Positions 3,180 through 40,955 of a stretch of 64,000 bases of DNA are shown in pieces. Where the stretch lies: the NCBI GenBank assembly GCA_019636475.1, contig JAHBXN010000001.1, forward strand, positions 558,001 to 622,000, in the 5' to 3' direction. Every line of letters begins with the position of its first letter. Positions within the stretch are counted from its first letter, which is position 1. The stretch comes from Phycisphaerae bacterium (GTDB lineage: Bacteria > Planctomycetota > Phycisphaerae > UBA1845 > UTPLA1). The notes below the pieces were generated by a model. That model worked only from the letters and a program-made list of their open reading frames with translations. It was not told where the DNA came from and made no database searches. Both the position numbers and the translations under genes were made by a program.

Positions 3180-3329
3180 GACGCCTCCGCCGCGGCACCG
3201 GACGATTCAGCCAACGCCGCGCCTGGTTTCCCAACAAGCAGATACAACCGCGCGTCGCGGATGCGGCATTCACGAACCCAAGCGAAACCAAAGGGCCCGC
3301 GGGACAGGCACGATTCACGATAAACTCGC

Positions 3330-4015: not shown

Positions 4016-4210
4016 GCCTCAATCTCCTATTCGCGCCGTGAAATCCGGCAATTGATTCGCGCAAGCAGGATCGTAAACCAATCCGCTCGAACCCGACACA
4101 CTCGCAATTATAGCCCGCTTCCTCAGGATGCAAGAACTTGATCCCACGACGAGGCGATTCAGTGTGCCGGCCGAATGGAGCACCCCCCCCATATCAATCG
4201 GAACCCGACG

Positions 4211-16633: not shown

Positions 16634-17449
16634 CTATTCAATCCGGGGGGCACCGTATGCCGGGCGCGAACCGGTACCGGCGTTTGACTGATCCGAGCCG
16701 CGGCCCGGCGGTGATGCCTCCCGCGACGCTCGTGTCGGCGGTTCGGGATCCGGCTTCGCGATGGGCTTCTCCCGACCATTCGATTGTCCGGAAGTTGATG
16801 CGTCCAGAATCTGGCCGCGAGAATCTCCGACGATCGGCACGCGCAGCACCTTCCGGGATGAGCTAACGACGCGCCCGTCATCGCGAACGTACTTAATGAC
16901 AACGGCCACTTTCTTGCCGCACACGCTTACATTGTCATCCCATTTGAGCCGCAGACCGTAGCCCCATCCGAGCATCTTCATCTCTCTCGCACGAAACTGC
17001 ATCGCTTCTTCGCGAGTGAATGTCCAGCATTGAACCTCAGTCGGCACTTCGCGACCGAGCGCGTCGGCATCGAGCCGATACATCGAGACCACCAGCGTTC
17101 CCGTGCCGAATACGCCCTTGGTGCTGCGGGCGCCTTCAAGATAAACCGCACATTTGAAACCATCGACCCGTCCGCTTCCGTCTGATGCGAAGCTCAGCCA
17201 CGGAAAACTGTCGAATATCTTGTTGACCCGGATGATGTTGGATTCCTCGGTGCTCGGCGGCGCGCTGATCGGCTTCGGCTCGATGCTTGAGGTGCGAATA
17301 GGCTTGAGTGGTTGCTGCTGCTGCTGTGCCACGCCCCCCTGCTCTCCGCAGCCTGTGACCAGCGCGAGGATGCACAGTACGGCGATCAATCCGTTCGCTC
17401 GCGAGCGGCGGATTCCTGACATGCAGATCGGTGCTGTTCGTGTTGTCAT
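16634..17449 (-). CDS. Lipoprotein of unknown function, gene next after gspD
   Basis: The leader (ANGLIAVLCILALVTGC) ends in a lipobox, giving a lipidated Cys at residue 34 from the ATG at 17449, or residue 25 from the ATG at 17422; a TTG at 17461 is also in frame. Neither ATG has a strong ribosome binding site. After a Gln/Pro-rich linker comes a compact domain (about 75-190) with WTFTREEAMQFRAREMKMLGW-like region and WDDNVSVCGKKVAVVIKY, resembling a beta-rich domain. The tail is Pro/Gly-rich. It lies only 87 bp after the secretin gene on the same strand, so it may be a pilotin or a secretin accessory (inference). I see no known pilotin motif. Confidence 0.78.
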   Translation of the reverse strand: MTTRTAPICMSGIRRSRANGLIAVLCILALVTGCGEQGGVAQQQQQPLKPIRTSSIEPKPISAPPSTEESNIIRVNKIFDSFPWLSFASDGSGRVDGFKCAVYLEGARSTKGVFGTGTLVVSMYRLDADALGREVPTEVQCWTFTREEAMQFRAREMKMLGWGYGLRLKWDDNVSVCGKKVAVVIKYVRDDGRVVSSSRKVLRVPIVGDSRGQILDASTSGQSNGREKPIAKPDPEPPTRASREASPPGRGSDQSNAGTGSRPAYGAPRIE

Positions 17450-17536
17450 TTGAATCGCCAATCAACTGCTACTGGGACGGCACCCAAACATTGTGAGGCC
17501 GCAAGAGCCCTTCGAACCGACAAAACCAATCGCACC

Positions 17537-20500
17537 TCACCGCGAGCCAACAGTCGCCGAACGCGCGTTGCGCCGGGCAACCACTTCCTCATCCTCCGGA
17601 TCTGAAGGCACCATCGGGCCATACTTCGGAACTTGCGGACCATACTTTTTTTCCGGCGGGACGGACTTGTCGCTCGGCGGCTGTGTCGGCTTGCCACCGT
17701 TCGGCGGAGTGTAATTTTCGTCGACGGGAAACTCCTCGATCGACGAAATCTCGTCCTCGGACTGCGGGGTGAGCCGCAGCTTTTCGAACAGCGGGCTCGC
17801 CTTCATTTCGTCTGTGATGATGCCCGACTTATCGCGTTCCTCGATGCTCATCCGGTAGCCGTCCTCAACCGTCCGGACGATTCGTGGCGTGAGCGCGAGG
17901 AGCAGTTCGGTCTTCCGCTTCACGCGCACGGTCGTGCGGAACGCGGCGCCGATGAGGGGAAGGTCGCCCAGTAGCGGAACCTTCGATTCACTCTCCGATT
18001 CGCTGGTGGTGATGAGGCCACCGATCACGACGGTTTCACCGTCCTTCACCGCGACAAACGTTTCGGCCTTGCGGTTCGTGAAGATCGGGGCAAAGACGCC
18101 GGGACCGACCTGGATGCTCGAATCGGCAATGTCCGAAATTTCCGGCGCGACCTTCAGATAGACCCAGCCGTCCGGATTGATGTTCGGCTCGACCTTCAGA
18201 ATGACACCGACGTCCTGATACACGACGTTGGTCTGCACGGTTCCGCCGGTGTTCTGCCCGGTGGCCTGCGGAATGGGTACCGACTGACCGACCGTGATGT
18301 TCGCAACCTGGTTGTCCTGGCACATGATCATCGGACGCTGAATGACTTCAAGCCGGCTGTCGGACTGGAGGGCGCGTACAAGGAAGTTGAAGTCTTCACC
18401 CGTGATGGTGAAGCTGAAGCCGCCCAGACCCGAGCCGGCCGCTCCAAGATCGGTGCCGCCAACCACGTCGAAATGGCTGCTCTGCAGAATGCCGTTTCCG
18501 CCGGGGACCGCCGTCTCGCTGAATCGCAGCTCCTGCAATGCGAACTCCAGGCCCATTTCAAACCGGTCGTCGATCGTGACTTCGGCGATCATGACCTGAA
18601 TCATCACCTGCGCCGGCGGCGTATCGAGCGACTCGACGATGCTGAGCACCGATGATTTCATGCGCGGACTGGTCGAGATGATGAGTTGGTTCGACTCTTC
18701 GTGAGCAATGACGGACACATCGCGTTCCATTCGCTGCTGAGGTGACACCGCGTCTCCCACGCTGTCCAGCACAGACTTTTCCTTCTGGAAGTACTGATCG
18801 AGCGCCGTCTGCATATCGACGGCCTTCATGTTCAAGGCCGTGTAGACGAAGCTGTCGCGGTTGCGTACATCGATCGAATCCAACTGATCGAGAATGTCAG
18901 CAACGACATTGATATCCTCGGGCCAGCCCGCGGCGATGATCGCGTTGGTTCGCTCATCAGCGACGAAGGTCGTTTTCGGCCGACCGAAGGTCCCTTTTCT
19001 GGATTCGCCGCCCTGCGACAGAGCGGTCGGCACACCGGACGTTCCGCTGATGCCGCCTTCGACATTCATCTCGCGGCCCTGTTGGAATTCGGCCTGCTGG
19101 CTCGCGGATTCGTCCTGTGCGAACATCGTTTCAAGAATCTGGACGATTTTCGTCGCGTCGGCGTGGCGCAGCAGGAATACCTTGACCAGGACCTCGCGCT
19201 TCTGGATGCCGTCCAGCTTGCGAATCAGCTCCTTGATCAGCTTCAGGGTCTCGGGCGGAGCCACGGCGATGACACTGTTGCTCCGCACATTAAAGGTGAT
19301 CTGAACGTTTTCCCGCATGGTCTGGAGCAAACGCTCTTCGCCAGGCGTCGTGCGATCGCGATAGGCGATCGGCCGGGAGCCCGCGGGCCGGAGATTGTCA
19401 TTCTCCGCGGAGGAGCCGCCGCCCTGCGCTCCCTGCGCCATCATGATCTGATTGAGAATCTCCGCCATCTTTTCGGCGTCCTCATTGTCGCACGGAAAGA
19501 TGCCGACCTCGACCAGCCCGGTGATGTCCGCCTGATCGAGCCGACCAATGATCGTCTCGACGTTGGACAATTCGCCCGGAGGCGCCGCAACGACGATCGC
19601 ATTGGTGCGCTCGTCCGCGACGACTGCCACAGCCTGCGCCGCGGACCCGCCGCCTGACTGGGCCGATTGATAGACTTCGTCCAGAATCTCCTTCACCTTC
19701 GACGCGCGGGCGCGCAGAAGCGGGAAGACCTTGACCATGTCGATCAGAGCGCTGGGGCGATCCAACTGCTTGATCAAATCGGCGATCAGGACGTGATCGA
19801 GCTTTGAGGCATTGACAACGATCGTCCGCGCCGTGTCGTTTGCCTCGACGGTCACCTTGATGTCCGGCACCGACGTTCCAGTCGCCCCCTGTCGAGGCTG
19901 GTTTCGCTCCTGGAAAATGTTCTTGATCATCTCGCCGACTTTCGAGGCCGGCGCTTCATTCGTCTTGTAAACGTGAATGACCTGACTCGACTCACCCGGC
20001 GGCACGTCGAGCTTCTTGATCAACTCCACCGCGCGATCAATCCCGTCCTTGCTGCCGCCCACCAGCACGCGGTTGCGCTTCTCGTCGGCAATCACCTTCA
20101 CGGTCCATCGCGCCGTGCTGCTGGCACCGGTCGATCCTCCCGTGTCGCGAACTTCCTTCAGCTTGTCGAAGTAGTCCTCGACCTGCGCGGCGACCTGTAC
20201 GCAATCGCCGTGCTGAAGCTGGATCAGTTCCATCACCGCCACATCCCAAGGCTTGGTGACGCTGTTCATCCGCGAGTGAATTTCGCGGATCACCGCCATG
20301 TTCTCGGGACTGGCCGTCACGACCAGGACGTTGGCCCGATCGTCAATGACGGTGGTGACTTTCTCCCTCGCCTCGGCGCCCTGTCCGGTGCCACCGGAGC
20401 CCGGCTTGAACAGTTTGCCCTGAAACAACTGATCGACCACTTCCTTGACGGCGCCGGCGCTGACGTTGTCGCAGCGGAAGAATTCTATCTGCCCCATGAC

Positions 20501-23500
20501 GCCGACTTCCACGTCCAGCTCTTTCACCTTCTCCATGAGCACGTCATAGTTCGTGCGAGAGGACGCGACGATCAGCGAATTCGTCGTCTCATCCACTTCA
20601 ATCGAGACCTTGTCCTCCGGCCGCACCTGTCCACTGACGGACGACATTTCCGCCCGCGCCTGGAAGAGATTGGACAGCGCCCCGGAAAGCTGCGAGGCCG
20701 AGTTGTACTTCATGCGAACGATGTAGATGTTCGCCATCGGGTTCAGTTCGAGATTCTCGATCTTGTCCACGACACCCTTGATCGATTCGAAATCGCTCAG
20801 GCTGGCCGATACGATCAGCGAATTGCTCCGCTCATCCGCCACAATGGCGGGAATCTCAAAACCCAGTCCGCCGGATTGTCCGCCTTCGCGTTGATCCCGG
20901 GTCTGCGTCCAGAGATTTTTCAGCTTCTCCGCCAGATCGTTGGCATTGCTCTTGCGAAGCGTGATCGTTCGGATGTTCTCGACGAGCGCCGACGCCTTCA
21001 CGTCCAACTGCCTGATGAGGTTCTTCAACTCCTCCATTCGCTCGAGCTTGGCCGCGATGATCAACGACTGCGACCGCGCATCCGGCGTGATGATGACCGT
21101 TTCGGATTTGGTCACCGCTTCGTTCGCGCCGGGAATCGTGTCCTTGCGCTTGTCCAGCATCTCCGTCAGCGCGCCTGCCAATGCCGTTGCGCTGGCGAAT
21201 TCCAACCGAATGATTTCAAACGGCATCACGCCGCGGCCCTGTACGTCGAGCTGCCTGATGAGCCCGTCGAAAACCTCGACCGCTTCCGGCCGGCCCACGA
21301 TGATCACCTGGTTGGTACGGGGATCGGCCTTGACCACCGCCTTATAGACCAGCGACCCGGATTCGCCCTCCGGCACGCCCTTGGTTTCGGACAATCCAGG
21401 CCGTTTGGTGAGGTTCTCGGCTTCACTCAGCATTTCACTGAAGCGTGTTGCAATCTCGCCGGCATCGGCGTATTGCAGCGTGAAAACCTTCGATGCAACT
21501 TCGGATTTCGACGGCTCTTTGTCGAACGCCAGAGCCACCTGCTTCATGATCAGGCAGTTCTCCATGGTGCTCGCAATCAGCAGCGCGTTTGAATCGGGAT
21601 CGCCAAAGACAAAGATGGGCCGATTGAGATCCACGGTCGCGAGCGGATTGCCGTTTTCGTCGAGCAGCCTCAAGCGGCGGATGAAGTCCTTCATCGGCGT
21701 GTCACCCGTCGCGGCGCGCTGCAAAAGTCCCGAAAGTAGTGTCGCCAGCGTGTCCGCCTTGGCGACCCGAAGCGGAACAACCATGATGTCGGCGCGTCCC
21801 TGTCCACCGGCCTTGCCTTTTTCGTCGGCTTCCTCCGGGAGTTCGGCATCGAGCAATTCGACGAAACCCGACACGACCTCGAGATCACTTTCCCCGGCCG
21901 CGACAAACGCGGTATTCGTTTGCGGATCGATCTCAACTGAAATAAGGCTCGGCGCCAGGCCGCGCTGCTTCAGGTATGAATCAATCAGCTTCTTGAGCAC
22001 TTCGCCCGATTCGCTGACGCGGCGATTCTTGAAAACGAATGCCTTCACGCGCTTGGAGATATCAACGGGAATGTCGGCGTCGCGAATCAACTGAGCGGCG
22101 AGAAGCATCTTGTCCTCTGATGCCGCGACATACAGACCATTGGTCCGTGAATCCGGGATGATATCGACCTTGTCCTGCGGTTGGGCCTGTCCCTGACCCT
22201 GGACTTCCAGCTTCTGAAAAACCGAAACCAGCGTCTGGGCCAGATCGCTGGCACTTGCGTTCTTCAGGCGGAAATATTCGATCCGCCGCTCCGGAACTGA
22301 CGCCTCGAGAATGCGGATCAACTTCTCAATCGTCTCGACGTCGGACTGCACGCCTTCAATGTAGATCATGCCGGGACCGGCTTCCGAGACCGTGACGTCC
22401 GCGCCGGTGAGTTGCAAGGCGCTCTTCGCCTCATCGGACCAATTCGCAAAATCGCCCGGCTGGGTGGTCGACGCGAAAAGCTCGTTCGCCGTCATCGAGT
22501 GCTCGGCCGGTTGGCGAGCGGCGTTCGAAGGCTCGCCGGTCGCGTGCCGGCTGCCGACCGGTCGTTCCGGCTGATTCGCCGATGCACGGATCGCCTCCGG
22601 CACCGACAGACCCTTTGTCGTCACCGGCAGGTTCTTTCGAGCTTCTTCGCCCTTCGTCGCGGGCTGTGTCGTCGCCGTCTCACGTGGCCGAATCGTTGAG
22701 ACGCGGGGCTTGTCCGCATTGGATTTGTCGGCATCGTCGGATTTGCTCGGTGTCGTCTGCGCGACTGCTGTCGAAAATGCCACCTGCATGAGGAGCAGCG
22801 GCATCGACGATGCAACAATTGTTGACTTCCGGCCACGGTCCTTCGACGCCGGCGCCGTCGAGTCGCCATCAAGCGCGCGTTCATAGCGGCGGTTATTCGT
22901 CCATTCGGCATCACCGCGCGGACCGCGGCGACCGCCCCCCTGCCGCGAGCCCGTGCCGCTGTTGCCCTCCTGCATCTGGCGGATCAGCTCCTGTACTTTC
23001 TGTTGAGACAGCTTGGTGCTGATGGGTACGACAGTGCGGACGACGCCTCCCTGCGGCCCCTTTGCGACGATTGTATCAATCATCCTGCGAATCTCTTCCA
23101 TATTGGCCTTCGACGCCGAAACCATCAGCACGTTGGCTTTCGTATTCGCCGTGATGGTGACCAGATCGGCCTTGTAGCCTTGCATGCGCTGGGCTTTGTT
23201 CCGCTCCATCTCGTTCAGATGATCCTGAATATCGCGGGCCAGCACTTCCACGTTCTGGCCGATCGGCACGTTCACAATCTGAACGCCCGTCGAGCTCGAT
23301 TCCATGCTGGAATCGAGGTGTTTGGCCATGTCGATGACTGCGTTGACTTCGCTGGTCTTGCCTTTGACGAGAATCTGGTTCGCCCCTTCATCGGCAACGA
23401 TCGTGAGCTTCTGAACCGAGGCCGAGCTACGGCTGGTGTCACGTCCTTCGACAAACAGCTTCTTCAGCACTTCGGCCTTGTCGGTCGCCGTGCCGTTGGT

Positions 23501-26500
23501 CACGGTATAGGTCACGGGCGTATCGCCTGTCGTCGGCACGTCCAGTTCCTTGATCTTCGCGACCGCATCCGCCACTGACGCCCGCTTGCCGCTCACGATC
23601 ACCGAATTCGAGGACTCAATCGCCTTGAGCCTCATGCCACCCGCGAGCACGGCCTCGTCCTGCTTCTTCTCCTGGCGACCCTCCATCCACCAGGGGATGA
23701 AACGGTCCTCCTCGCCGCTGGCTGTGCGTTTCTGCACTTTCAGCACTTCGGTCATCACTTCGAGCACTTCCTTCGCGTCCTGATACTGCAGGGCGACCAT
23801 CTCAATTGTCTGATCGGTGATTCGATCCACGTCGATATCCCGGATCAGTTCGTCGATGAGATTCTTGGTGGTCTCCGTCGCGAAGATGAGCAGCGTGTTG
23901 CTGCCGGCCTCAGCCATGACCGTCACCTGGTTGTCCTGTGCTTCGGACGTGCTTTGCGATCGCATCCACGGCGGCAGGTTTCGGTTTTGCGAGACGCCGG
24001 ATTTCTTGTCGAAAAACTGCTGCAGCGTCTGGGCGACGTCATCCGCCACTGCGAACTTCAGTGGAATCTTGTAGAAATTAAGCACCTTCGTGCCCGGCGA
24101 CTTACTGAGCGGCTCGATCACCTGCTTTTTGATCTTATCGAATTCCGCATCCGTCGCGCTGATCAGGACGGTGTTCGTGGGTTCGTGGTACTGCGCCTTC
24201 GGGCCGTCGCCGCTCTGCCCGCCGCGCGCGCCGAAGAGCTGATTGATGTTTTCCGACACGCCTCGCGCCGGAACCTGCTCCGGCATCGTCACGGTGTGGA
24301 CGATGCGTCCTCCCTCGATGTCCACCTTCTCGACAAGCGACTTGATCTGCTCGTACTCCTCCGTGTTGGCGAATGCGATGATCTTGGTCGTGCCCGGAAT
24401 CGCCTTGATGGTCGGCGGCGTCTGCTGCCGACGGTTGCGGTACATGTCCTGAAAGACCGCCTGCACGGCCTGGGCGACATCGTTCGGATTTGCGTTGGTC
24501 ACCTCGATCACGCGCTGCACACGCGTGTCCTCGGCCTTGTCCATCTCGGCAATCATCGTTTCGATTTTCGCCATGTTGGCCGTTGATGCCGTCACAAAGA
24601 CACTATTCGTCGTCCAGTTCTCGGCAACCTGAACGACGTCGCGGGGCGAAGGATTACGATTCGGAGTGGTGAAGCTCTGCCGAATGCTGTTGGCCACCGC
24701 CCACGGATCGGCGAAAGTCAGCTTGATGTTCTTGCGCAGCACGTCGTCCGTACCCGCCGGCTTGATATCGAGCTTCGCGATCAGTTCCTCAATCTCGTCG
24801 AAGAGCTGGCTTTCGGCCGTCGCGACGAGCATGTTCGAAGCGAGGTCCGCGGTGATGTTGTACGGATACTGCCCGCTGCGCTGAACCGGCATGCGTCCGC
24901 GAAGCGATGCATCGAGCGCCCGCTGCAGATCGTCGGCACGGGCTTCCTTGATCTGATAGTAGCGCGTCTCCTTGGTCTGACCGGGCTTGTCGGTCTCCTC
25001 GATCAACCTGGCGACCTGGTCCATGTTCTTTCCGTTGGCGGTGACGACAATCGACAGTGTGCCGTCTTCAAATGCCGCGGTGACGCGTTCGTTCGGATTG
25101 CGCGTCGCGGTGCCGTACTGCTGATTGATGATGTTCGCCATCGTCCACGGGGCGACATACTTGACTTTGAAAGCGCGGGTAATGCGATCCTGCGGCGGAA
25201 CGTCGAGCTGCGTGATCCAGCCGGACACCTTTTCGAAATTGGCCTCCGTGGCGTTGATGAGGAGCGTGTTTGAACCGTCGTCGCCGGTGACGTTCACCGG
25301 GAACCGGCCGAGCACATTCGGCATTGTTGCCCGCACTTGCGTCATCAGCGTGTTCGCGAGTTGCGAGGCCTGCGCATTTTTCACCTGGTAAACATAATCG
25401 CGCTTCGCAGTGCCCTCTGCGCCTTCGGTGTCCATCATCTGGACGAGCTCACCCACTTTGTCCTGGTTCACGTCATTCGCCTGAACAATCACCGTGTTGG
25501 TGTTCATGTCGAGGCTGACCGTGACCTGATCGCGGCTGGCCATGCCCGGGCGGCTCGGGAAGTTCGTCGAGATCGCCTGTTGAACGGCCTGCGGGTTCGC
25601 ATAGCGAACAACATACGCCTTGGGCTTGCGGTCGCCCTGAATCGCGATGCGGTCCGTATCCATTTCCGCTAGCTTGCGATCGAACTCCTCCTTCACATGC
25701 GGGGCACAATTCACGAGGAGCATGTTGCTGTTCGGATCGGCCGTGACATAGAAAGCGTCCTGCGGCTTGTTTCCGCGGGCCTGACGCCACTTGTTCATCG
25801 ATTCCTCGATGATCGGCCTCAATTCGTCCGCCCGCGCGAACCTGAGCGGCACGTTGTAACTCGCCGGCTCGGCGCCGACATTCGCAAGAATCGGCTCGAT
25901 CAGCGCTTCCTTGATTTTCTTGTGCTGATCGGCGTTCGCATCGACGATCACCATGCTGGCGGCGACGTTCGCCGTGACACGCGGAGCCTCAACCCCGGAT
26001 GACTGCGGCGTGACGCCCTGAAACATGGCGTTGATATTCTGTGCAACCTGGTTGACATCCTGGCCGGTCGGCAGCTTGTAGGAGACGCTCGTGCGCTGCA
26101 GCGGCGTCTCGGGCGGCACGTCCACTTCGCCCAGCATCGACTGAAGCAGCATGATCGACGTCGGTCCGCCGACCAGCACCAGCGAATTCGTTCGAGGATC
26201 GGGCGTCAAGCCGATGAGGTCGAGATTCAGGTCCGACCGCGAGGTCACGGCCGTCGCCATGAGTGTCTGGATACGCTGATGAACATCCTGAGCGGCGGCA
26301 TTCTTCAAAGGGAAGCGCTTGACCTGAACATCCGTCGGCGCGGTGTCCATCGACTCGGCGATCGACTTGATCTGATCAAACATGTCGTCCGGACAACGCA
26401 CATAAAGCGTCCCATTCGACTTGACCCCCTTGAACGACACGTCGTTCTGCGCTCGACCGCGGCCTTGCTGAGCCGCAAACACCTCGGTCAGCTTCGTCGC

Positions 26501-29500
26501 GATTGTTTCTGCGTTGGCAACGGCCAGCTTGATCGTTCGAAGCGCCTGGGCGTTCTCGATCTTCGCATCCATGCTTTCGATCTGTTTCTGGATTTCGGCC
26601 ATCTGCGGCGCCGGCGCCTTGACGAGAATCGTCTTGGTGGCGTCGTTCGATGTGATGATGATGTCCGTGGTTGGGCCGCCGCGTCCGGGACCTCCGCCGC
26701 GACTCGTCACGAACAGATCCTTCAGCGACTGGACCATGTCACTCGGGGTCGCCTTGACTGTGAACTGCCGGACTGTGTTGTCTCCCGCGTCGATATCGAG
26801 ATCCTTGATGATCTTGCCGACCACTTCGCGATCCTTCGCCTGACCGGCCACGATGACGCTGTTGGTCCGCGAATCCGCCTGGACAAGCACCCGATTCACG
26901 CCGGCGCGCCGCGCGCCACGGCCGCCGCCGGGAAAGCCCTGTTGCTGCATCTGTGCAGCGGCCGCACCGCCTCCGGGGAGCAATTCCCGTGCAAGGTCAT
27001 CCACGATCTCCGCGATGTCGGTCGCACGCGCGTGAATCAGTTCAAATCGCTCCATGTCCCACTGCGTCGTGTTCGTCAGGGTCTCCAATTCTTCGATGAG
27101 GCCCTCGATCAGATCAAGCGTATCGGGCGGAGCCTGGGCAATGACCGTGTTCGTCTGCGTCTCGGCCGTGAGCTTGATCTTGTCCGCCGCGACAGTGGCC
27201 GCGCCGGTCTGGCCGGGCAGGCCGACAATCTGTTGTTCGCCTTCGGCCCCGCCGCCTTGCTGCGGCATTTGCTGTCCTGGACGTCCCCCCCGGCCTCGAG
27301 CCGCCGTCATGGGCTGCTCCAGTCCAAGGATGTCGCGCAATCGCTCGACAACCTGCTCCGCCTCAAGATTCTTGAGCCGGAAAAACCGGATGTTCTTGGA
27401 ATCCAGCACGCGAACATCAATCTTGCGAAGGACTTCAACGATCAGCGGAATGTCCGACAGCTTCGCGATGACAAACAGGCTTTTCGTTCGTTCTTCCGGA
27501 ACAACCTTCAACAACGAGCCACCGCTTGAACCCCGTCGAAGCCCCGGCTGCTGAACCACCGCGGCCTGCGGCATCTGAGGCTGCACCGGAATCGGCTGGC
27601 CGGTTTTCGGATCGATCTGCATCTGACCGGGCTGCGGCTGCTGAGGTCCGGCCTGCTGTCCGCGACGGCCTTGCTGCTGCTGCGGCTGGGGCGCGGCCTG
27701 CTGATTGAAGACCTGGTTCAACAGTTGTGCCGCCGTGTTGACATCAGCGTACTTCAAGGGAAAGACGCGAATCACGGTCGGCGATTCGTCTTCATCACCC
27801 TCGATCTCCGAGATGATCGCTTCGATCTCATCTTCCGGACCGACAATGATGTACTCACCGGTATCCGGGTCCTGAATGATCGAGACCTTGTCGTGGTGCG
27901 GCTCGCTGGGATTCTGCACATTCCGCGTACCGGCAAAGCGGAGCGACTTGCCCTCGCCTTCGTCCGATGGCTGGGTCTGCGCGACGGCCGCCGCCGCCTG
28001 CGCCTTCAGGAGCAATGCCGGCAACGATCCCGGAATCGACGAAGCCGGCGCGAAACCGACCGGGGTGTTCTTATCGGTCCCGGTGCCGGATGAATTCGCG
28101 CCCGTCTCGCTCCCGGGCTTCGAGCCACCGGGCGCCGACGGCTGTGTCTCAACCTCGTCAGGCTCCTGACCTTCGTGAATATCAATGACCTGAACGCGGC
28201 CCTCCCGGCCGGACCGAATGAATTCGATCGGAATGCCGCTTGCGGTTTGTCCGTCACGCAACTTGAGAATGGTCTCGAGCCGCGATGACGTGACCTTGTC
28301 CGAACTCAGCACGCGATAATCCTTGCGCACGCCGCCTTCGGGCACGTCGAACATCGTCGCCACTTCGCGAATCTTCTCCTCCTGCCCGGGCTTGTAGTTT
28401 CGGACAATCAGATCTCGCTTCGTCGGACCCTCGAGGAATTCCACCTTCGAGCGCTCGTTCGTGTTGATGAAATCATCCAGCGTGAAAGACAGGTCCCATG
28501 CGGACTTGTACTTCAAGCGAATCACAAAAAACTCATCGGAATCGCGGCCTTCCTTGCCAACGATCGTCGTCGTGGGCGGGTCGCTCAGAACAACCGTGAG
28601 CAGTTCCTCGATCGCAACAAAATCCTTCGGCAATGCTCGAATCAACAGCGAATTCTTGTCCAGGTCCGCGTAGATCACGATGTCGGTCGACGTCTGCGTC
28701 GGAATTGAAATCTGCTGAATCGCCTGACCCGGCTGACCGCCAGGTACCGGTCGGCCCGGCGCCTGCCGGCCCGGCGCCGGCCGCGACGTGCCGCCGGCCG
28801 CCACTCGGCCCGCAAGCAGCGCCCGGAGCTTCTGCTCATCACTTTCGGCATCGTTCACGGCATAGACCCGCGTCACCGGCGACTGATCCGGCACGTCGAT
28901 GCGCTGGATAATCATGAGCGCCTCGGCCACGCGCGTTCGCGGCCCCTTCAGAATCAGTCGATCGCCGTTGGAAACGACCTTCAGTTCCTTCGCGTTCGGA
29001 TTGAACTCACCGGCGACCGCCTGCCCCGCAGGCATGCCGGGCACGCCCGCCCGAGCCGTCGGCCCGCTGCCGAGAAGGGTCGTCAGCGTCGTGGAGATTT
29101 CCTCGGCCGGGCGATGCTCCAGTGTCACAATAACCTGCTCATCGGGGCCGTATTGATCCTCGGCCACCTTCTCCATCTCGGCCACCAGCTTCTGAATTTG
29201 TTCCAGTTCCTTGGGCGGCGCAGTCACCAGTAGCGAATTCGTCACCGGCTCCGCGACGATGCGGACGCTGGTATCGCCCCGTTGGTTGACCATACCAGGT
29301 CGCTGAACCGGCTGTGGACGCTGCTGCGGCGCGCCGGGTGTCGGCACATTGGCACGAGCGGTCGTGATGGCCTGCGCCCCGGGAATACCCTGAGCGAGAA
29401 TCGGCGCGATCACGTCCGCCTTGCAGTGATCCAGCTTGATGATTGTCAACTCCGCCGTCGCATTGATGTCCAGCGTCTCGATCAGCGGAACGACCTGCTC

Positions 29501-32053
29501 CACGAACGACGGCGTCGCGAAAATCTGCACGGTGTTGTTGTAGATGTCGGCCGTAACAATCTGCGGAACACTCGATCCCGGCGCCGGCGGAAACATCGAG
29601 TTGATCATCTGGGCCACATCTTCCGGATTCGCACGCTTCAGCTCGATTGTCTGCAGCATCGGCTTGGTTGTGCCCGCCTGCGCATCGAGCTTCAGCACCA
29701 GGTCCTCGACCTGCGGCCACTCCTTGTCGGAGCAATAGACCATCAGTGTCATGGCATCGTCATCAGGAAGCAGCAGCGGCCCGGCCCCGCCCGCCTGGCC
29801 GGAGGCGATCACCTGCTGCATCTGCGCCTGCACCGGTTGACCCGGTTGCCCTGGCTTGGCGGGTTGAACCGGCCTGCCCCGCATGGCCCGATTCGCGCCC
29901 TGCATCTGCATGACGCGAGGCGTCGATCCGCCGTTGACCGACGAGAGCACCTGCGTAACCGTCTGCGCAACATCCGAGGGTGTCGCGAACTCGAGTCGCA
30001 TGATGTGTTCGTGCGGCTCCTCGGGATTCGAAATATCAATCTTCTCAAGCAGCGCCATGACTTCGCGCAAGTCCGACGGGCTGCATGAGATCAGCAGCGT
30101 ATTCGAAGACTGAACCGTAACCTGCGGCGCCATCGACGCGCCACGCGATCCCATCAGACGTTGGAGCGTCATCTGGATCATCTGCATCGCATCATCCGAC
30201 TTCATATGTTGCAACGTGATGATCTCAGTCACCCACTCCGTCGGTACGTCGTACTGGCGCACGAGTTGCTTGGCTCGCGCCCGACCCTCGTCGCCGCCGA
30301 CGATGATGACCGAATTGCTGGACACATCGGGAAAAATGTCCACATCGAGCGCGGCCTTGATCTCCTCCGGCACATAAAGCTGGGTCTTGTTCACGTCCGC
30401 CAGCATCTTCTGGAAGAGCGGTTTCAAGGTCGTGACGATCGTGTTGGCCGACGCGTTCTCGAGCCTGAGCAGTTCCTGCTTCGGCGGCACCCATTCGCCG
30501 ATGTCGATCCGCTTCAGGGTCGTGAGAATCTCATCCACCAGATACTGCGGTCCCCGGACATACAGTTCGTTGTTCGTGATGTCCGGAACAATCGTCAGTG
30601 CCTTCTGCTCCTGCATATTGGCGTCGATCGTCACCGGGCCGCCTGGCCTCGCTCGTGGCGTGGGAGGCGCGATCTGAAACAGTTGATTGAGTATCGTCTG
30701 GACAGTTGCCGCCTTCTGCGCCCGCAGCTTGTAGATCAACTGAGGCTTGTCAAACTCAGTGGGCGGCTTGCCGACGGTCAGCTTCGCGACGGTGGCCTTG
30801 AATTCATAGTGTTCCTTCACCAGACCGGTCAGTTGAATCAGGTCAGGGCCGACGATCTCGGTTCCGTACGTATCGGAGAACATCGAGCGGAACTGCTCGA
30901 TCACCTGAAATGCCGACCATCCCGGCGGCGTGCGATATTTGACAAGGCAGACTTCATAAAGATCCAGATGCGCCGCTTCGAACTCCTCGAACGAGTTGAA
31001 CATCCGATCCGTATCGATCTTGCGAACCAGATCCGGAATGCGCTCGACCGTGAGGTACTTGGGCTTCCGCTGAATCACATAGTTATTCAGCGGATTAAGC
31101 AGCAGCAGTTCGTTCAGCTTGTAATAGGCTTCCTGAAACGTGTAGTCGTCATTGCTGAAATAGGTCAGATTGCCGGCGATCGGCGGATCAGGCTTGTTCA
31201 CGAGCGGGAGGCCGCTGATTCGCGAAAAGTCCTCCAGCACGTCCTGCCACGGCATGTCGAAATACTGGAATCGATACGTCCGTGCCTCCGGCTGCGGATC
31301 CTCGATCTGGAACACGAGCATCTTCGTCTTCGTATTTGTCACAACCGGCGCTGCATCGTCCGATGTCTCGCCAGGGGTCGCGGTCGTGGCACTCGCGGGC
31401 GGAGTGCCGCCGCGCGGACTTGCCGTCGCAGGTGTTCGAGGAGCCCGGGGATCGGGCCGGCCGCCGGTACGGCCCGGCGTCGGCTGGATCGCGGGTGCGC
31501 CCGAGCCGTCGGTCGGCTGATTCATCTGATGCGCATTCCCAGGCTGCGACAGATTCGCCTTCGGAACCGTCGGCATCGCACGGCCGGTAGGTCGGTTCAC
31601 GCGGCCTCCCGCTCGATTGGGATGCGTCGGCTGCGCGCCGTTGACCTGTGTGCTCGGGGGAACCGCCGCAGGCTGAGTAGTCGCCGGAGATCCGGCGGAA
31701 GGCTGACCCAGACCGGCCGGCGTCACAGCAGGCTTGTCCGCAGTCTTTGCCGGCTGTGTCGAAGCCCGCGCCGCCGCCTTCAGCTTTTCAAGATTTGCAT
31801 CGTCTGCGGACTTGTCGGCCGGCTTGTCGTCTGCTGCGCTTTCGGCCGACTCGACCTCGTCCTTGGCTTCCACGCCGGCGGCATCGTCGCTCGCAGGCGT
31901 GGAGTCATCGACTTTCTGCGTCGTCGCCGGCTCATCGCCGACAACAAAGCGAGCCTGCCATGTGAAGACGCAGAACATCGCGAGCATTCCGACGACTGGC
32001 CATGCCGCCGGAAAAACTGCACGTTCGGTCTTTGTCAGTTTCTTCGATTTCAT
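17537..32053 (-). CDS. gspD: Giant type II secretion secretin (GspD family) with about 44 N1-like units
   Basis: The 4838-residue protein forms the outer-membrane channel. Textbook GspD is about 600-700 residues. Order: signal peptide (VVGMLAMFCVFTWQ); disordered Pro/Thr linker (to about 220); an N0/STN-like domain; then by eye about 44 secretin N1-like units of roughly 100 residues, each opening like VFPLKYADV and closing like TNSLIV...LIRQLD. These are broken by two linkers near residues 1300-1390 and 3010-3140. A normal secretin domain (about 4475-4730) follows, with VMIQVMIAEVTIDDRFEMG, VKDGETVVIGGLI and VPLLGDLPLIGAAFR, then a short tail. The start at 32053 has GGAG upstream; the frame is open to 32182 without support. 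There is no frameshift across 14.5 kb. It is the last large gene of the gsp operon. Confidence 0.95.
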   Translation of the reverse strand: MKSKKLTKTERAVFPAAWPVVGMLAMFCVFTWQARFVVGDEPATTQKVDDSTPASDDAAGVEAKDEVESAESAADDKPADKSADDANLEKLKAAARASTQPAKTADKPAVTPAGLGQPSAGSPATTQPAAVPPSTQVNGAQPTHPNRAGGRVNRPTGRAMPTVPKANLSQPGNAHQMNQPTDGSGAPAIQPTPGRTGGRPDPRAPRTPATASPRGGTPPASATTATPGETSDDAAPVVTNTKTKMLVFQIEDPQPEARTYRFQYFDMPWQDVLEDFSRISGLPLVNKPDPPIAGNLTYFSNDDYTFQEAYYKLNELLLLNPLNNYVIQRKPKYLTVERIPDLVRKIDTDRMFNSFEEFEAAHLDLYEVCLVKYRTPPGWSAFQVIEQFRSMFSDTYGTEIVGPDLIQLTGLVKEHYEFKATVAKLTVGKPPTEFDKPQLIYKLRAQKAATVQTILNQLFQIAPPTPRARPGGPVTIDANMQEQKALTIVPDITNNELYVRGPQYLVDEILTTLKRIDIGEWVPPKQELLRLENASANTIVTTLKPLFQKMLADVNKTQLYVPEEIKAALDVDIFPDVSSNSVIIVGGDEGRARAKQLVRQYDVPTEWVTEIITLQHMKSDDAMQMIQMTLQRLMGSRGASMAPQVTVQSSNTLLISCSPSDLREVMALLEKIDISNPEEPHEHIMRLEFATPSDVAQTVTQVLSSVNGGSTPRVMQMQGANRAMRGRPVQPAKPGQPGQPVQAQMQQVIASGQAGGAGPLLLPDDDAMTLMVYCSDKEWPQVEDLVLKLDAQAGTTKPMLQTIELKRANPEDVAQMINSMFPPAPGSSVPQIVTADIYNNTVQIFATPSFVEQVVPLIETLDINATAELTIIKLDHCKADVIAPILAQGIPGAQAITTARANVPTPGAPQQRPQPVQRPGMVNQRGDTSVRIVAEPVTNSLLVTAPPKELEQIQKLVAEMEKVAEDQYGPDEQVIVTLEHRPAEEISTTLTTLLGSGPTARAGVPGMPAGQAVAGEFNPNAKELKVVSNGDRLILKGPRTRVAEALMIIQRIDVPDQSPVTRVYAVNDAESDEQKLRALLAGRVAAGGTSRPAPGRQAPGRPVPGGQPGQAIQQISIPTQTSTDIVIYADLDKNSLLIRALPKDFVAIEELLTVVLSDPPTTTIVGKEGRDSDEFFVIRLKYKSAWDLSFTLDDFINTNERSKVEFLEGPTKRDLIVRNYKPGQEEKIREVATMFDVPEGGVRKDYRVLSSDKVTSSRLETILKLRDGQTASGIPIEFIRSGREGRVQVIDIHEGQEPDEVETQPSAPGGSKPGSETGANSSGTGTDKNTPVGFAPASSIPGSLPALLLKAQAAAAVAQTQPSDEGEGKSLRFAGTRNVQNPSEPHHDKVSIIQDPDTGEYIIVGPEDEIEAIISEIEGDEDESPTVIRVFPLKYADVNTAAQLLNQVFNQQAAPQPQQQQGRRGQQAGPQQPQPGQMQIDPKTGQPIPVQPQMPQAAVVQQPGLRRGSSGGSLLKVVPEERTKSLFVIAKLSDIPLIVEVLRKIDVRVLDSKNIRFFRLKNLEAEQVVERLRDILGLEQPMTAARGRGGRPGQQMPQQGGGAEGEQQIVGLPGQTGAATVAADKIKLTAETQTNTVIAQAPPDTLDLIEGLIEELETLTNTTQWDMERFELIHARATDIAEIVDDLARELLPGGGAAAAQMQQQGFPGGGRGARRAGVNRVLVQADSRTNSVIVAGQAKDREVVGKIIKDLDIDAGDNTVRQFTVKATPSDMVQSLKDLFVTSRGGGPGRGGPTTDIIITSNDATKTILVKAPAPQMAEIQKQIESMDAKIENAQALRTIKLAVANAETIATKLTEVFAAQQGRGRAQNDVSFKGVKSNGTLYVRCPDDMFDQIKSIAESMDTAPTDVQVKRFPLKNAAAQDVHQRIQTLMATAVTSRSDLNLDLIGLTPDPRTNSLVLVGGPTSIMLLQSMLGEVDVPPETPLQRTSVSYKLPTGQDVNQVAQNINAMFQGVTPQSSGVEAPRVTANVAASMVIVDANADQHKKIKEALIEPILANVGAEPASYNVPLRFARADELRPIIEESMNKWRQARGNKPQDAFYVTADPNSNMLLVNCAPHVKEEFDRKLAEMDTDRIAIQGDRKPKAYVVRYANPQAVQQAISTNFPSRPGMASRDQVTVSLDMNTNTVIVQANDVNQDKVGELVQMMDTEGAEGTAKRDYVYQVKNAQASQLANTLMTQVRATMPNVLGRFPVNVTGDDGSNTLLINATEANFEKVSGWITQLDVPPQDRITRAFKVKYVAPWTMANIINQQYGTATRNPNERVTAAFEDGTLSIVVTANGKNMDQVARLIEETDKPGQTKETRYYQIKEARADDLQRALDASLRGRMPVQRSGQYPYNITADLASNMLVATAESQLFDEIEELIAKLDIKPAGTDDVLRKNIKLTFADPWAVANSIRQSFTTPNRNPSPRDVVQVAENWTTNSVFVTASTANMAKIETMIAEMDKAEDTRVQRVIEVTNANPNDVAQAVQAVFQDMYRNRRQQTPPTIKAIPGTTKIIAFANTEEYEQIKSLVEKVDIEGGRIVHTVTMPEQVPARGVSENINQLFGARGGQSGDGPKAQYHEPTNTVLISATDAEFDKIKKQVIEPLSKSPGTKVLNFYKIPLKFAVADDVAQTLQQFFDKKSGVSQNRNLPPWMRSQSTSEAQDNQVTVMAEAGSNTLLIFATETTKNLIDELIRDIDVDRITDQTIEMVALQYQDAKEVLEVMTEVLKVQKRTASGEEDRFIPWWMEGRQEKKQDEAVLAGGMRLKAIESSNSVIVSGKRASVADAVAKIKELDVPTTGDTPVTYTVTNGTATDKAEVLKKLFVEGRDTSRSSASVQKLTIVADEGANQILVKGKTSEVNAVIDMAKHLDSSMESSSTGVQIVNVPIGQNVEVLARDIQDHLNEMERNKAQRMQGYKADLVTITANTKANVLMVSASKANMEEIRRMIDTIVAKGPQGGVVRTVVPISTKLSQQKVQELIRQMQEGNSGTGSRQGGGRRGPRGDAEWTNNRRYERALDGDSTAPASKDRGRKSTIVASSMPLLLMQVAFSTAVAQTTPSKSDDADKSNADKPRVSTIRPRETATTQPATKGEEARKNLPVTTKGLSVPEAIRASANQPERPVGSRHATGEPSNAARQPAEHSMTANELFASTTQPGDFANWSDEAKSALQLTGADVTVSEAGPGMIYIEGVQSDVETIEKLIRILEASVPERRIEYFRLKNASASDLAQTLVSVFQKLEVQGQGQAQPQDKVDIIPDSRTNGLYVAASEDKMLLAAQLIRDADIPVDISKRVKAFVFKNRRVSESGEVLKKLIDSYLKQRGLAPSLISVEIDPQTNTAFVAAGESDLEVVSGFVELLDAELPEEADEKGKAGGQGRADIMVVPLRVAKADTLATLLSGLLQRAATGDTPMKDFIRRLRLLDENGNPLATVDLNRPIFVFGDPDSNALLIASTMENCLIMKQVALAFDKEPSKSEVASKVFTLQYADAGEIATRFSEMLSEAENLTKRPGLSETKGVPEGESGSLVYKAVVKADPRTNQVIIVGRPEAVEVFDGLIRQLDVQGRGVMPFEIIRLEFASATALAGALTEMLDKRKDTIPGANEAVTKSETVIITPDARSQSLIIAAKLERMEELKNLIRQLDVKASALVENIRTITLRKSNANDLAEKLKNLWTQTRDQREGGQSGGLGFEIPAIVADERSNSLIVSASLSDFESIKGVVDKIENLELNPMANIYIVRMKYNSASQLSGALSNLFQARAEMSSVSGQVRPEDKVSIEVDETTNSLIVASSRTNYDVLMEKVKELDVEVGVMGQIEFFRCDNVSAGAVKEVVDQLFQGKLFKPGSGGTGQGAEAREKVTTVIDDRANVLVVTASPENMAVIREIHSRMNSVTKPWDVAVMELIQLQHGDCVQVAAQVEDYFDKLKEVRDTGGSTGASSTARWTVKVIADEKRNRVLVGGSKDGIDRAVELIKKLDVPPGESSQVIHVYKTNEAPASKVGEMIKNIFQERNQPRQGATGTSVPDIKVTVEANDTARTIVVNASKLDHVLIADLIKQLDRPSALIDMVKVFPLLRARASKVKEILDEVYQSAQSGGGSAAQAVAVVADERTNAIVVAAPPGELSNVETIIGRLDQADITGLVEVGIFPCDNEDAEKMAEILNQIMMAQGAQGGGSSAENDNLRPAGSRPIAYRDRTTPGEERLLQTMRENVQITFNVRSNSVIAVAPPETLKLIKELIRKLDGIQKREVLVKVFLLRHADATKIVQILETMFAQDESASQQAEFQQGREMNVEGGISGTSGVPTALSQGGESRKGTFGRPKTTFVADERTNAIIAAGWPEDINVVADILDQLDSIDVRNRDSFVYTALNMKAVDMQTALDQYFQKEKSVLDSVGDAVSPQQRMERDVSVIAHEESNQLIISTSPRMKSSVLSIVESLDTPPAQVMIQVMIAEVTIDDRFEMGLEFALQELRFSETAVPGGNGILQSSHFDVVGGTDLGAAGSGLGGFSFTITGEDFNFLVRALQSDSRLEVIQRPMIMCQDNQVANITVGQSVPIPQATGQNTGGTVQTNVVYQDVGVILKVEPNINPDGWVYLKVAPEISDIADSSIQVGPGVFAPIFTNRKAETFVAVKDGETVVIGGLITTSESESESKVPLLGDLPLIGAAFRTTVRVKRKTELLLALTPRIVRTVEDGYRMSIEERDKSGIITDEMKASPLFEKLRLTPQSEDEISSIEEFPVDENYTPPNGGKPTQPPSDKSVPPEKKYGPQVPKYGPMVPSDPEDEEVVARRNARSATVGSR
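18630..31030 (-). repeat. Array of about 44 diverged secretin N1-like protein repeats within gspD
   Basis: Units recur every 90-120 codons. Each has an opening strand and helix (for example RFFRLKNLEAEQVVERL or KVFTLQYADAGEIATRF), a variable low-complexity loop, a strand with D-x-R/T-T/S-N (ADERTNAIIAA, PDSRTNGLYVAA) and a closing helix ending in LD or MD. I counted about ten units before the first linker, nineteen between the linkers, and fourteen or fifteen before the channel domain. I noticed no long exact DNA repeats, so the duplications appear old. Counts are by eye and may be off by a few. Confidence 0.85.
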
Positions 32054-32142
32054 CACTACGTCTCCACGCAAAGCCGCCGCACAGCCGAATGGACCGTGCG
32101 AGGGCGCGTCTCCATCATTCGATTCCGCCCCAAGTCTTACAC

Positions 32143-33699
32143 TTATTGCGCCGCAGCCGACGCGCTTCGCGTCCGCGACCACGCATCGATCGCATCTGCA
32201 AGACCTTCTTCACTCTCCACATTGAGCCAGACCCGCTTGCCGAAAGTCTTGCCAAGCGGATACAGGTAGTAGTTTCCGGTCGCCGGCATATACACCACGC
32301 CGCCCAGCGGATGAACCGCGCGCAGCGTGCCGCCATCCACAGCGCCCTCGTCGGCCAAAGTAATCACGCGCCGACCCGTTCCGCCCACCACGATCATTTC
32401 CTGAACGTCACGATAGGTCCAAAGACCCGCGACTTTGTACTGATCATCCGGCGGGGCATCCTCGGGCGGCGGTTGGTTCGTATCGACATAGACCGGTTCT
32501 TCCGGCTCCGGTGGAATCGTCAGCGTCTGCTTGGTGTCAGAAGGCATGTACGTTCCACCCGGTGCAGGCTTGCGGGATCGATACGTCGCACTCACCTGAA
32601 TCTGCTTCGCCCGCCATTCGCCAATGTCGATCGTCTGATTCGCCTCGATCAGCATGGTGGGTGGCCGAAGTTGCTTGTCGTCTTCCGTTGTAACCACGAT
32701 ATTCAGCAGAACCTCTTCAGCGTTGGTATTCTGTACGGCGAGATTCACGATCTTCGGCGGTTCAGGCGGCGTTCGAGACGCCACCTTGTAGGCCCACGGA
32801 CCGGCCGTTTTGAATTCGTGACGAATCGGACCCTCCGAATGGCCGTCGGCGTACGCGATGGTCAGTTCCACCACATCGCCCTTGCCTTCGACCTGCACCT
32901 GACTGTTACCGCCGACACCCTTCTGAAATTGCGTTTCTTCCTTGCCATCGAAGGAAAATACGCCCTTGATTCCGACCATTTTTCGGTCCTGGTTGTCCAG
33001 AAGAACGACGTTGGTCGGCGCGGGAACAAACTCGCGGAACAGATTCCGTGTGTCGAAAATCGCGTAGTACCAATCGGGCGCGACATCCTGCCGGACCGAC
33101 GCGAGCGGCTCGGCCGGATCAGTCGGAATTGTCCGGGGCGCTTCCGCGAACGTGATGTCTTTGATTCGCTCCGGCAGCACCGGCGTCTCAACCGTCACGT
33201 CGAGTTTCACATTGTTCCGGCCGTATCGCGGCCCGAGCGGCGTGAGCGCCAGATTCGTAATCTGGCACAGAAACGGGGCGCGATAGATATCGCGAACAAA
33301 TGCCATGACTTTGACATAATCACCAATCAGCGTCACGCTCGCGGCCGGCGACTTGATTTGAGTCTTCACCCCGATGCGGATGCCCATCGCGGTCTTCACG
33401 TTCGGAGAATCGAACCCATGACGAAGGGCGATTCGCTTCAATTCAAGTTGCAGCATGTCCTTCGCGAGCGTTTCGTTGAATGAAAATGTCCGCGCCGCAT
33501 CCGCAAGCCAGACTTTCTCCACGCGGTGTTTTTCATCTTCGAGCCGCTTCAGTTTGTTGTAACGCTCGCTGTAGCTCTCGCGCAGCTGGTGCGCCTTTTT
33601 GATCTCGCCGATGAAAAGCCAGTTGATCATCGACCAGACGCCCAGCACGCCGAGGAATACGCCGAAAATCGCGGCCAGTCGTTTCTCACGAGGGTTCAT
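32143..33699 (-). CDS. gspM: GspM/PilO-like assembly-platform protein with PilP/GspC-like C-terminal part
   Basis: The 518-residue protein has one N-terminal membrane helix (LAAIFGVFLGVLGVWSMINW), a coiled coil (IKKAHQLRESYSERYNKLKRL), a PilO/GspM-type ferredoxin-like domain (DYVKVMAFVRDIYRAPFLCQ, then ITNLALTPLG) and a second region starting near YAIFDTRNLFREFVPAP. That last motif resembles the homology region where GspC or PilP proteins begin (NLFR), followed by VVLLDNQDRKMVGIKGVF. No separate gspC is in the operon, so this protein may fill both roles (inference). Its start overlaps the gspL stop as ATGA. It ends 90 bp before gspD. Confidence 0.8.
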   Translation of the reverse strand: MNPREKRLAAIFGVFLGVLGVWSMINWLFIGEIKKAHQLRESYSERYNKLKRLEDEKHRVEKVWLADAARTFSFNETLAKDMLQLELKRIALRHGFDSPNVKTAMGIRIGVKTQIKSPAASVTLIGDYVKVMAFVRDIYRAPFLCQITNLALTPLGPRYGRNNVKLDVTVETPVLPERIKDITFAEAPRTIPTDPAEPLASVRQDVAPDWYYAIFDTRNLFREFVPAPTNVVLLDNQDRKMVGIKGVFSFDGKEETQFQKGVGGNSQVQVEGKGDVVELTIAYADGHSEGPIRHEFKTAGPWAYKVASRTPPEPPKIVNLAVQNTNAEEVLLNIVVTTEDDKQLRPPTMLIEANQTIDIGEWRAKQIQVSATYRSRKPAPGGTYMPSDTKQTLTIPPEPEEPVYVDTNQPPPEDAPPDDQYKVAGLWTYRDVQEMIVVGGTGRRVITLADEGAVDGGTLRAVHPLGGVVYMPATGNYYLYPLGKTFGKRVWLNVESEEGLADAIDAWSRTRSASAAAQ

Positions 33700-37291: not shown

Positions 37292-37327
37292 AATATTACA
37301 ATAAATCACAACCACCGAGCCAGCCCA

Positions 37328-38260
37328 TCACCGGCTGCCGGAACTGCCTGACCCGCTGCCTCCGCTCGCTCGCGTGCGGGTAATCTTTTGTGCACGCATC
37401 AGCCGCGATCCCATGAACGTGTCCGCCTGCGGCAAACGCACCATGATCGTATAGGCTTCACGCGTGTAAGGATCTGGCTCGGAGGGAGTTAGATCAAACT
37501 TGAGCGGATCCTCCTCTTCTTCTTCCTCGGGCGGAGGGACTTCCTGATAGCCGACCGTGATCTCGATCGCCTGCGGAAGGGAGTTCCCCATCTTCCCCTC
37601 AGGCTGCAAGCCAAGGTCCCATCGGTCCAGCCAATCCACACCGTCGTAGTAGCGGAATCGGATGAACTTCAACTCAGGCGAAACCAGATCGAGGCTGACG
37701 CAGTTCTCATCCTTCTCAAACAGCGCCGTTTGAAAGTGGGTCTTCACCTCGCGGCGCACAAGCCCCAGCGGAGCCTTGCCGGTCGTACCGTTGGGATAGG
37801 TGTAGCTCTCGTCTTCCTGGTCATAGGCGAGGTAGTACTGAACCTGCCGGATGTCGCACTCGGCCGGTGGAGGCAGTTCCTCGATGCCTCGCTGTCGGAA
37901 TAGCGTCCTGTCCGGAAGTGTGACCGTCTGAAAAGAGATGAAACGCTCCTTCCCGGTGACGCCCGGACCGAGCGTCGATACAAAACCGTTCGAAGCGCGA
38001 ATCTCCTCCGCAATCTGATGAGCGACCATCTTGGCGAGATAGCCCGCCGTCGTGACCTTCAGCGAACTCTCACGCGTTCGCATGACCTGGTCATAGAACG
38101 AAAACAGCAGCAACGACACCAGCACCATGAGGCCGATCGCCAACAGCACTTCCAGCAGCGTCAGCGCGCGTCGGCGATCTCGCCGCGCATCACGAGACAC
38201 CGGAACGGCCAATCGCCGCCCGAATGCGTTCGCGGGTCGCCTGTGCCGGCATGGCGTCAT
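37328..38260 (-). CDS. gspJ: GspJ-like minor pseudopilin
   Basis: The 310-residue protein carries a basic leader (about 32 residues) and the prepilin site before LTLLEVLLAIGLMVLVS, with Glu5 present. The following region (YDQVMRTRESSLKVTTAGYLAKMV, then VQYYLAYDQEDESYTYPNG and FIRFRYYDGVDWLDRWD) matches GspJ. Near the end is a run of eight acidic residues (PPPEEEEEEDPL) and a Gly/Ser tail. The start overlaps the gspI stop by one base (TGATG), so it is coupled to gspI. Confidence 0.87.
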   Translation of the reverse strand: MTPCRHRRPANAFGRRLAVPVSRDARRDRRRALTLLEVLLAIGLMVLVSLLLFSFYDQVMRTRESSLKVTTAGYLAKMVAHQIAEEIRASNGFVSTLGPGVTGKERFISFQTVTLPDRTLFRQRGIEELPPPAECDIRQVQYYLAYDQEDESYTYPNGTTGKAPLGLVRREVKTHFQTALFEKDENCVSLDLVSPELKFIRFRYYDGVDWLDRWDLGLQPEGKMGNSLPQAIEITVGYQEVPPPEEEEEEDPLKFDLTPSEPDPYTREAYTIMVRLPQADTFMGSRLMRAQKITRTRASGGSGSGSSGSR

Positions 38261-39195: not shown

Positions 39196-39388
39196 GAATG
39201 CGCTCCCTGTCCGAGAGGCCTTCAGGAGGCCTTGCGAGAACCCATTTCTTGTACGCAATAGAGCGGCAATCGTCGCAGAACGGACGATCTTTTTCGGAAG
39301 TATCTTCGAGCCGGCACGGCAGACTTAACTTTCAGCGAATCATAAAGATATGGCTTATGCAGGCGACAGCGACGCGGACATTTTCGAA

Positions 39389-40846: not shown

Positions 40847-40955
40847 CACGAAACCGCCGCGAGGAAATCACGCCCGCGAAGGGGCGTGAAAGGCCGCGGG
40901 GCACCGACATGAAGCCGCGCCATCGCCAGGGCGGATCAGCGCGTGCAAACACGAC

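Follow-up and report, generated by a model that had tools for sequence, protein, structure and literature searches.

A giant T2SS-type secretin with about 43 N1-type domains in Phycisphaerae and the long periplasmic tunnel that it may form

What would a bacterium build from a secretin of 4838 residues, most of which are repeated N1-type units? Secretin oligomers consist of 12-19 subunits arranged as stacked rings, and in the solved secretins each N domain contributes one ring. The window analysed here, a stretch of 64,000 nucleotides from a Phycisphaerae bacterium (assembly GCA_019636475.1, contig JAHBXN010000001.1, positions 558,001 to 622,000), encodes on its minus strand a protein that a first-pass annotation had described as a secretin with about 44 N1-like units, an order of magnitude more than GspD or PilQ carry. 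The unbroken 14.5 kb frame of 4,838 codons was confirmed. It starts with an ATG at 32053 with GGAGA upstream (a longer alternative, 17537-32182, would begin with GTG and give 4881 aa) and encodes, from N- to C-terminus, a signal peptide, a Thr/Pro/Ala/Gln-rich linker, an N0 domain, N1-type units spanning residues ~368 to 4478 and a secretin domain at residues 4480-4838 (Table 1).

Table 1. Features of the giant secretin gene and its gene cluster in the window
Feature	Position	Strand	Basis or remark
Lipoprotein gene dn1, lipobox LVTGC	16634..17461	-	conserved neighbour of secretin
Giant GspD-type secretin gene	17537..32053	-	4838 aa, 525 kDa
Secretin channel domain PF00263, VPLLGDLP motif	17873..18373 (residues 4561-4727)	-	Pfam
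Module 3: 14 N1-type units	18620..22282 (residues 3258-4478)	-	family-trained HMM
Junction 2/3 linker	22283..23071 (residues 2995-3257)	-	signal-peptide-like segment STIVASSMPLLLMQVAFSTAVAQ at 22757-22825
Module 2: 19 N1-type units	23072..27772 (residues 1428-2994)	-	family-trained HMM
Junction 1/2 linker	27773..28597 (residues 1153-1427)	-	degenerate signal-peptide-like segment at 27977-28030
Module 1: 8 N1-type units	28598..30736 (residues 440-1152)	-	unit HMMs, model
N0 domain, single copy in protein	31037..31282 (residues 258-339)	-	AlphaFold match to GspD N0 (3oss); PF21305 in orthologues
N-terminal signal peptide	31928..32053 (residues 1-~40)	-	sequence and hydrophobicity
PilO/GspM-like inner-membrane protein, 518 aa	32143..33699	-	weak PF04350, synteny
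GspL/PilM-like protein	33696..35474	-	PF11104, TIGR01175
GspK	35528..37315	-	PF21687
GspJ-like	37328..38260	-	weak PF11612
Probable GspI	38260..39258	-	place in conserved gene order
GspH, long Gly/Asn-rich tail	39389..40849	-	PF12019
GspG major pseudopilin	40956..41405	-	TIGR01710 above cut-off
GspF	41597..42796	-	PF00482; TIGR02120 380 bits, just under cut-off 424

The Pfam search proposed in the first-pass annotation gave the single C-terminal channel domain that had been claimed (PF00263, 163.9 bits against a cut-off of 27.5) and 37 stretches matching PF03958 (984 bits), but PF07660 was unmatched in the window protein, whose N-terminal domain is instead of the PF21305 (GspD N0) type. The latter model scores above its cut-off in orthologues from families f4 and f12 and below it in the window protein. 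An iterative HMM grown from the window protein returned 45 matches, a few of them partial, and a family-trained HMM returned 41 clear units; the AlphaFold model adds one further N1-like unit ahead of module 1, just after N0 (residues ~368-426), and the earlier count of about 44 was a fair one. With 41-45 units and 4838 aa, the protein falls outside the standard definition of GspD in both N-domain number and length. The array had been taken for one uniform run and is instead built of three modules. Many units carry long low-complexity loops, and the linkers at the junctions measure ~140-430 residues in the fused proteins of f4 and of f1, the family of the window. A Cys motif like PCVLPASLL is found at junction 1/2 in most f1 proteins, the window's own not among them, and also in two f8 proteins (L088 and L100).

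Structure prediction in segments gave no different fold for the repeats, which are N1-type and GspD-like. The model of residues 238-680 (24 sequences, mean pLDDT 83) found its best matches among T2SS secretin N-domains, namely those of the K. pneumoniae PulD complex, XcpQ and ETEC GspD (Foldseek against 6hcg, E 1.9e-12). The N0 model aligned with the GspD N0 of the GspC-GspD complex 3oss with Z 9.8 and an rmsd of 1.8 Å over 77 residues, and single modelled units aligned with GspD at 1.2-1.6 Å. In the model of residues 4026-4735 (37 sequences, mean pLDDT 70), repeated beta-alpha-beta-beta-alpha units run into a GspD-like barrel, and GspD entries were again the best matches. By sequence, GspD is nearest to the C-terminal part and PilQ next, the NCBIfam models scoring 269 (GspD), 172 (PilQ), 133 (MshL) and 100 bits (SctC) on the last 479 aa. 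The whole protein reaches 1040 bits with TIGR02517 (cut-off 351), a score inflated by 25 repeated stretches; the 269 bits of the last 479 aa alone lie under this cut-off yet far over the PilQ, MshL and SctC scores. The protein thus comprises a signal peptide, one N0 at the tip, about 43 domains of the N1/N2/N3 fold and a GspD-like secretin domain. Domain, fold and gene context support its assignment as a T2SS-type secretin, and HMMs, structure prediction and conservation agree with the earlier view that it is a real T2SS secretin and not an orphan repeat protein, as they do with the claimed excess of N1 domains.

In transcription order the cluster reads gspF, G, H, I, J, K, L (PilM-type), M (PilO-type), the giant gspD and dn1, so that the pseudopilins G-K, together with F, L and M, are linked to the giant gene. 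The locus had been called a complete T2SS operon, which holds for F to M and D, but gspE lies outside the cluster as an orphan (G000:C1:399492-400634, L202) about 175 kb away and GspC was not found in the genome (best PF11356 match E 0.27, below cut-off). In f2, f8 and f12, gspE stands directly upstream of gspF and has the orphan gspE of the window genome as its best match; judging from these sequences, the orphan is a gene relocated out of the operon. The PilO-like M protein has ~300 extra residues, and its C-terminal part resembles a GspC-HR/PilP domain by eye. It possibly contains a divergent HR-like domain, which would explain the missing GspC. A prepilin peptidase gene is present (PF06750 at C1:71 kb). 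The genome also encodes five other secretins of 577-874 aa, and in each the unit HMM detects at most one unit (two of the frames are partial).

Other families of the class share the gene order K-L-D and, wherever the DNA covered extends far enough, further genes of the F to J set. The lipoprotein gene dn1, with a lipobox-like Cys, follows the secretin gene in all 32 loci of the order that were examined, and weaker homologues lie beside giant genes in other families and on Verrucomicrobia-labelled contigs. It has no relatives in Pfam, NCBIfam or PDB, and PDB sequence searches with its product and with the M protein returned nothing meaningful. By position only, dn1 is a candidate pilotin, and it may represent a new pilotin-like family. 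Near the secretin gene, a fused VKOR-DsbA protein is encoded at 14521-15918 on the minus strand, with homologues behind the operon in two f1 relatives as well (L078 and L112). Positions 59684-64000 of the plus strand encode PilT- and PilB-type ATPases, with which a distinct type IV pilus cluster begins, opposite in strand to the gsp genes.

An array of this size could stem from faulty assembly, or the gene could be a functionless repeat gene in decay. Nothing positive speaks for either, apart from a stop codon inside the searched match in one relative (G008). TRF detected no tandem array of the unit period in the DNA and self-BLASTN of the gene only two pairs (39-49 bases, 78-82% identity), which makes the array old and not inflatable by mis-assembly of near-identical repeats. 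Frames of similar length recur in independent assemblies, single-contig genomes included (G002, G013, G014, G047 and G208). In f1 the frame measures 4,261-5,207 aa in 15 of the 17 genomes, and the other two frames (1,184 and 1,952 aa) sit on contigs of 8-12 kb. Reciprocal best unit pairs between f1 proteins are perfectly collinear (35/35, 38/38 and 31/31), and orthologous units score medians of 126-176, against a median best score of 79 between units inside the window protein. As orthologous units are closer to one another than are the units of one protein, each position has its own identity. The dN/dS ratio is 0.09-0.13 in three same-genus pairs and under 0.25 in every computable window; the array is under purifying selection along its length. 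Assembly artefact or chance was rejected on the independent assemblies, the collinearity, the dN/dS and the absent DNA repeats, and to an artefact or a decaying gene we assign a negligible probability.

The survey of related gsp operons proposed in the first-pass annotation showed that the giant array is family-wide and widespread in the class, sometimes spread over two or three genes. Within the order to which the window belongs, f3 and f4 have long frames, and the secretins of f2, f5, f6 and f8 are mostly 1,250-1,900 aa. True array loss in these short secretins was considered and rejected, as an upstream gene holds the missing units. In f5, f6 and f8 this is a separate gene of 2,600-4,377 aa with 23-53 N1 units (f6 partial) ahead of the secretin gene, which itself usually has 14 units, and in f2 there are three tandem genes of 1,290, 1,254 and 1,605 aa with 10, 14 and 14 units. 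Where no partner gene was visible, the upstream genes were unrelated (L083) or the locus was left out for N stretches or chimaeric frames (L089 and L093). The split genes keep the module order (N0 module, middle, secretin) and begin with signal peptides wherever the start could be judged, and the fused proteins of f1 and f4 contain the same three modules with linkers between them. The units of module 3 pair, largely one by one, with the 14 units that the stand-alone secretin genes encode in f2, f6, f8 and most of f5; in more distant families the array can be matched in parts only. Totals across the order are alike whether one, two or three genes are involved (34-48 units, one higher), and N0 was found at the N-terminal tip alone. 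Unit order and number are kept within the family, as is the linkage to pseudopilin, platform and lipoprotein genes, and the modules are divisible. In the secretin-domain tree the split forms fall together beside f1 with moderate support, with a long-branch fused f12 row among them. Most simply read, the tree suggests a fused ancestor that was split once at junction 2/3 and, in f2, once more.

At junction 2/3 the fused f1, f3 and f4 proteins keep a hydrophobic segment, which in f1 ends with A/G-x-A/G-Q, the pattern at true signal-peptide ends in this group. The segment of the window protein, STIVASSMPLLLMQVAFSTAVAQ, is homologous to RTTVAASMPVLMMHLALGTAIAQ in another genus. Against shuffles it reaches p=0.03 in the window protein and p<0.05 in 12 of the 19 fused homologues. 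At junction 1/2, hydrophobicity was above shuffles in none of the tested linkers, the window's included. The segment at junction 2/3 may be a relic of fusion, or signal peptidase may still cleave there. If cut, the protein would be a polyprotein, exported whole and processed at its internal segments into two or three proteins that assemble as modules; this would fit a stacked tube too, with working parts that are not giant and a parallel in the three f2 genes. Bradyrhizobium FbcH provides a precedent for an internal signal peptide in a bacterial polyprotein. Besides the conservation of the segment in the fused proteins, such processing is favoured by the real N-terminal signal peptides that relatives carry at the same place, and by fission from a fused ancestor, the simplest reading of the tree, which would make the segment older than the split. 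We nevertheless regard it as unlikely, since hydrophobicity at junction 1/2 is not significant, the internal segments are weaker than true signal peptides (7 of the 19 not significant) and could be relics of an earlier gene fusion, and other families of the class have an unbroken array with no such junctions.

Outside the order, further families of the class Phycisphaerae have single frames without such modules, with 20-63 units (f9, 47-49; f12, 43; f15, 29-51; f105, 22; f106, 39; f107, 20-40; f108, 33-63; f111, 37; f112, 40). A single frame reaches or exceeds 3,000 aa in at least 53 of the 248 genomes in the class sample, the longest being 6,169 aa with 63 units. Unit number was rejected as a universal ruler, since counts in the class run from 20 to 63, although it stays constant within certain families, as in four f9 genomes with 49 units each. 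In the phylum sample, the matches outside the class were under 1,500 aa among the matches listed; a secretin of a Gemmata MAG has 2,321 aa and 8 units.

Frames of about 3,000-4,040 aa were found in Verrucomicrobia-labelled MAGs. The contigs with giant secretins L123, L126, L130, L131, L133, L138 and L140 mostly bear this label, some being named 'Akkermansia muciniphila' (a doubtful label). In an RpoB tree built on motif-checked frames, the giant-bearing MAGs L123, L130, L133 and L140 fall outside Planctomycetota and cluster with a Verrucomicrobiae MAG. Units of f107 and f108 correspond position by position to the final 14-15 units of L123; the arrays are therefore homologous, and either transfer between phyla or presence in an ancestor is possible on these sequences. 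The wider secretin tree is weakly supported and joins long branches.

Like GspD (PulD, XcpQ, EpsD; TIGR02517), the giant protein has an N-terminal N0, N1-type units, a C-terminal secretin domain, for which GspD is the closest match in sequence and fold, and a gsp operon context. GspD has N0-N1-N2-N3 only, in about 600-700 aa, whereas the giant secretin has ~43 N1-type units in three modules, and its system differs from a standard T2SS in that no GspC was found and the cognate gspE is unlinked. Unit number, the modular divisible build and the missing GspC set it apart from known T2SS secretins. With the PilQ of Thermus thermophilus (PMC5745081) it shares extra N1-type domains, which would here form rings as well and give a reach suited to a wide periplasm; that PilQ has six rings (N0-N5) in 757 aa and serves a type IV pilus and DNA uptake, while the giant secretin has ~7 times the units and T2SS pseudopilins. 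The secretins of Planctomycetia of ~1,200-1,500 aa (for instance L108, L109, L145 and L153) come from the same phylum, have a related secretin domain and with 5-8 units exceed the usual number, but they have several-fold fewer units than the giant protein and form a separate branch in the secretin tree. The crateriform structures with pili-like fibres of planctomycetes are also large complexes that join outer and inner membrane in this phylum (PMC5394234), but they are described from another class; a link between the two is speculation.

We consider it probable, with moderate confidence, that the protein is a T2SS secretin of the outer membrane and that its N1 domains stack to form a periplasmic tunnel of great length. 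It would most likely be the working secretin of the T2SS in a wide envelope, and we infer both the stacking and the length. Assembly would involve 12-15 subunits, with a computed mass of 6-8 MDa. Every unit would form a ring, like N1-N3 of GspD and N1-N5 of Thermus PilQ, and the rings would stack in sequence order, from N0 at the inner-membrane platform to the secretin domain in the outer membrane. At the few nm per ring of known secretins, about 43 rings would extend very roughly 100 nm or more. For comparison, the six rings of Thermus PilQ form a channel of ~35 nm in a periplasm of ~70 nm (PMC5745081, PMC4463427), and planctomycetes have a variable periplasm that can be greatly enlarged (PMC5394234). 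A tunnel of such length would suit this wide, variable envelope. A pseudopilus of GspG-K, driven by GspE, F, L and M, would push substrates through it, and the lineage-specific unit number (20-63) would set its reach. An N0 at the tip alone, position-specific units and separate modules in the same order fit a long ring stack.

Several points weigh against a tunnel. Ring stacking lies beyond what monomer models can show, the long low-complexity junction linkers and the split genes could mean separate structures, and the genome has the five other secretins and no detected GspC, the partner of N0. Instead, a short secretin of normal build may be surrounded by its N1 domains as a flexible chain or folded brush, acting as a tether (to the inner membrane or peptidoglycan), as a receptor for cargo or exopolymer, or as a spring. 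The low-complexity loops and junction linkers would suit such an arrangement, as would the resemblance of N1-like folds to KH domains, which bind other ligands, and the occurrence of the array as a separate polypeptide in relatives. These domains form rings in solved secretins, however (PMC5745081), and position-specific conservation with N0 at the tip only favours an ordered stack, so we see in the brush a minor alternative of low probability. Extending the tunnel reading to the whole group is more tentative, and we propose it with less than even confidence: Phycisphaerae and some Verrucomicrobiota may stack 20-63 N1 rings into a T2SS tunnel that measures some 100 nm or more. The unit number of each lineage would determine the length, and the tunnel could be built from separately exported stackable segments, whether these come from two or three genes or from a polyprotein cut at internal signal peptides.

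No giant, long or extended secretin, and none from Phycisphaerae or planctomycetes, was described in the open-licence literature searched, which is a weak indication of novelty; a paper on Phycisphaerae genomics makes no mention of secretion or secretins. Textbook secretins have few periplasmic rings, and the family described here has about ten times as many N1-type units and occurs in much of a class and part of another phylum. A family so conserved and widespread suggests an export tunnel that would greatly exceed all known ones in length. This would change ideas on how far such tunnels can reach, how their length relates to the width of the envelope and whether rings from separate chains can stack, and the giant secretin would offer a genetic handle on the enlarged planctomycete periplasm.
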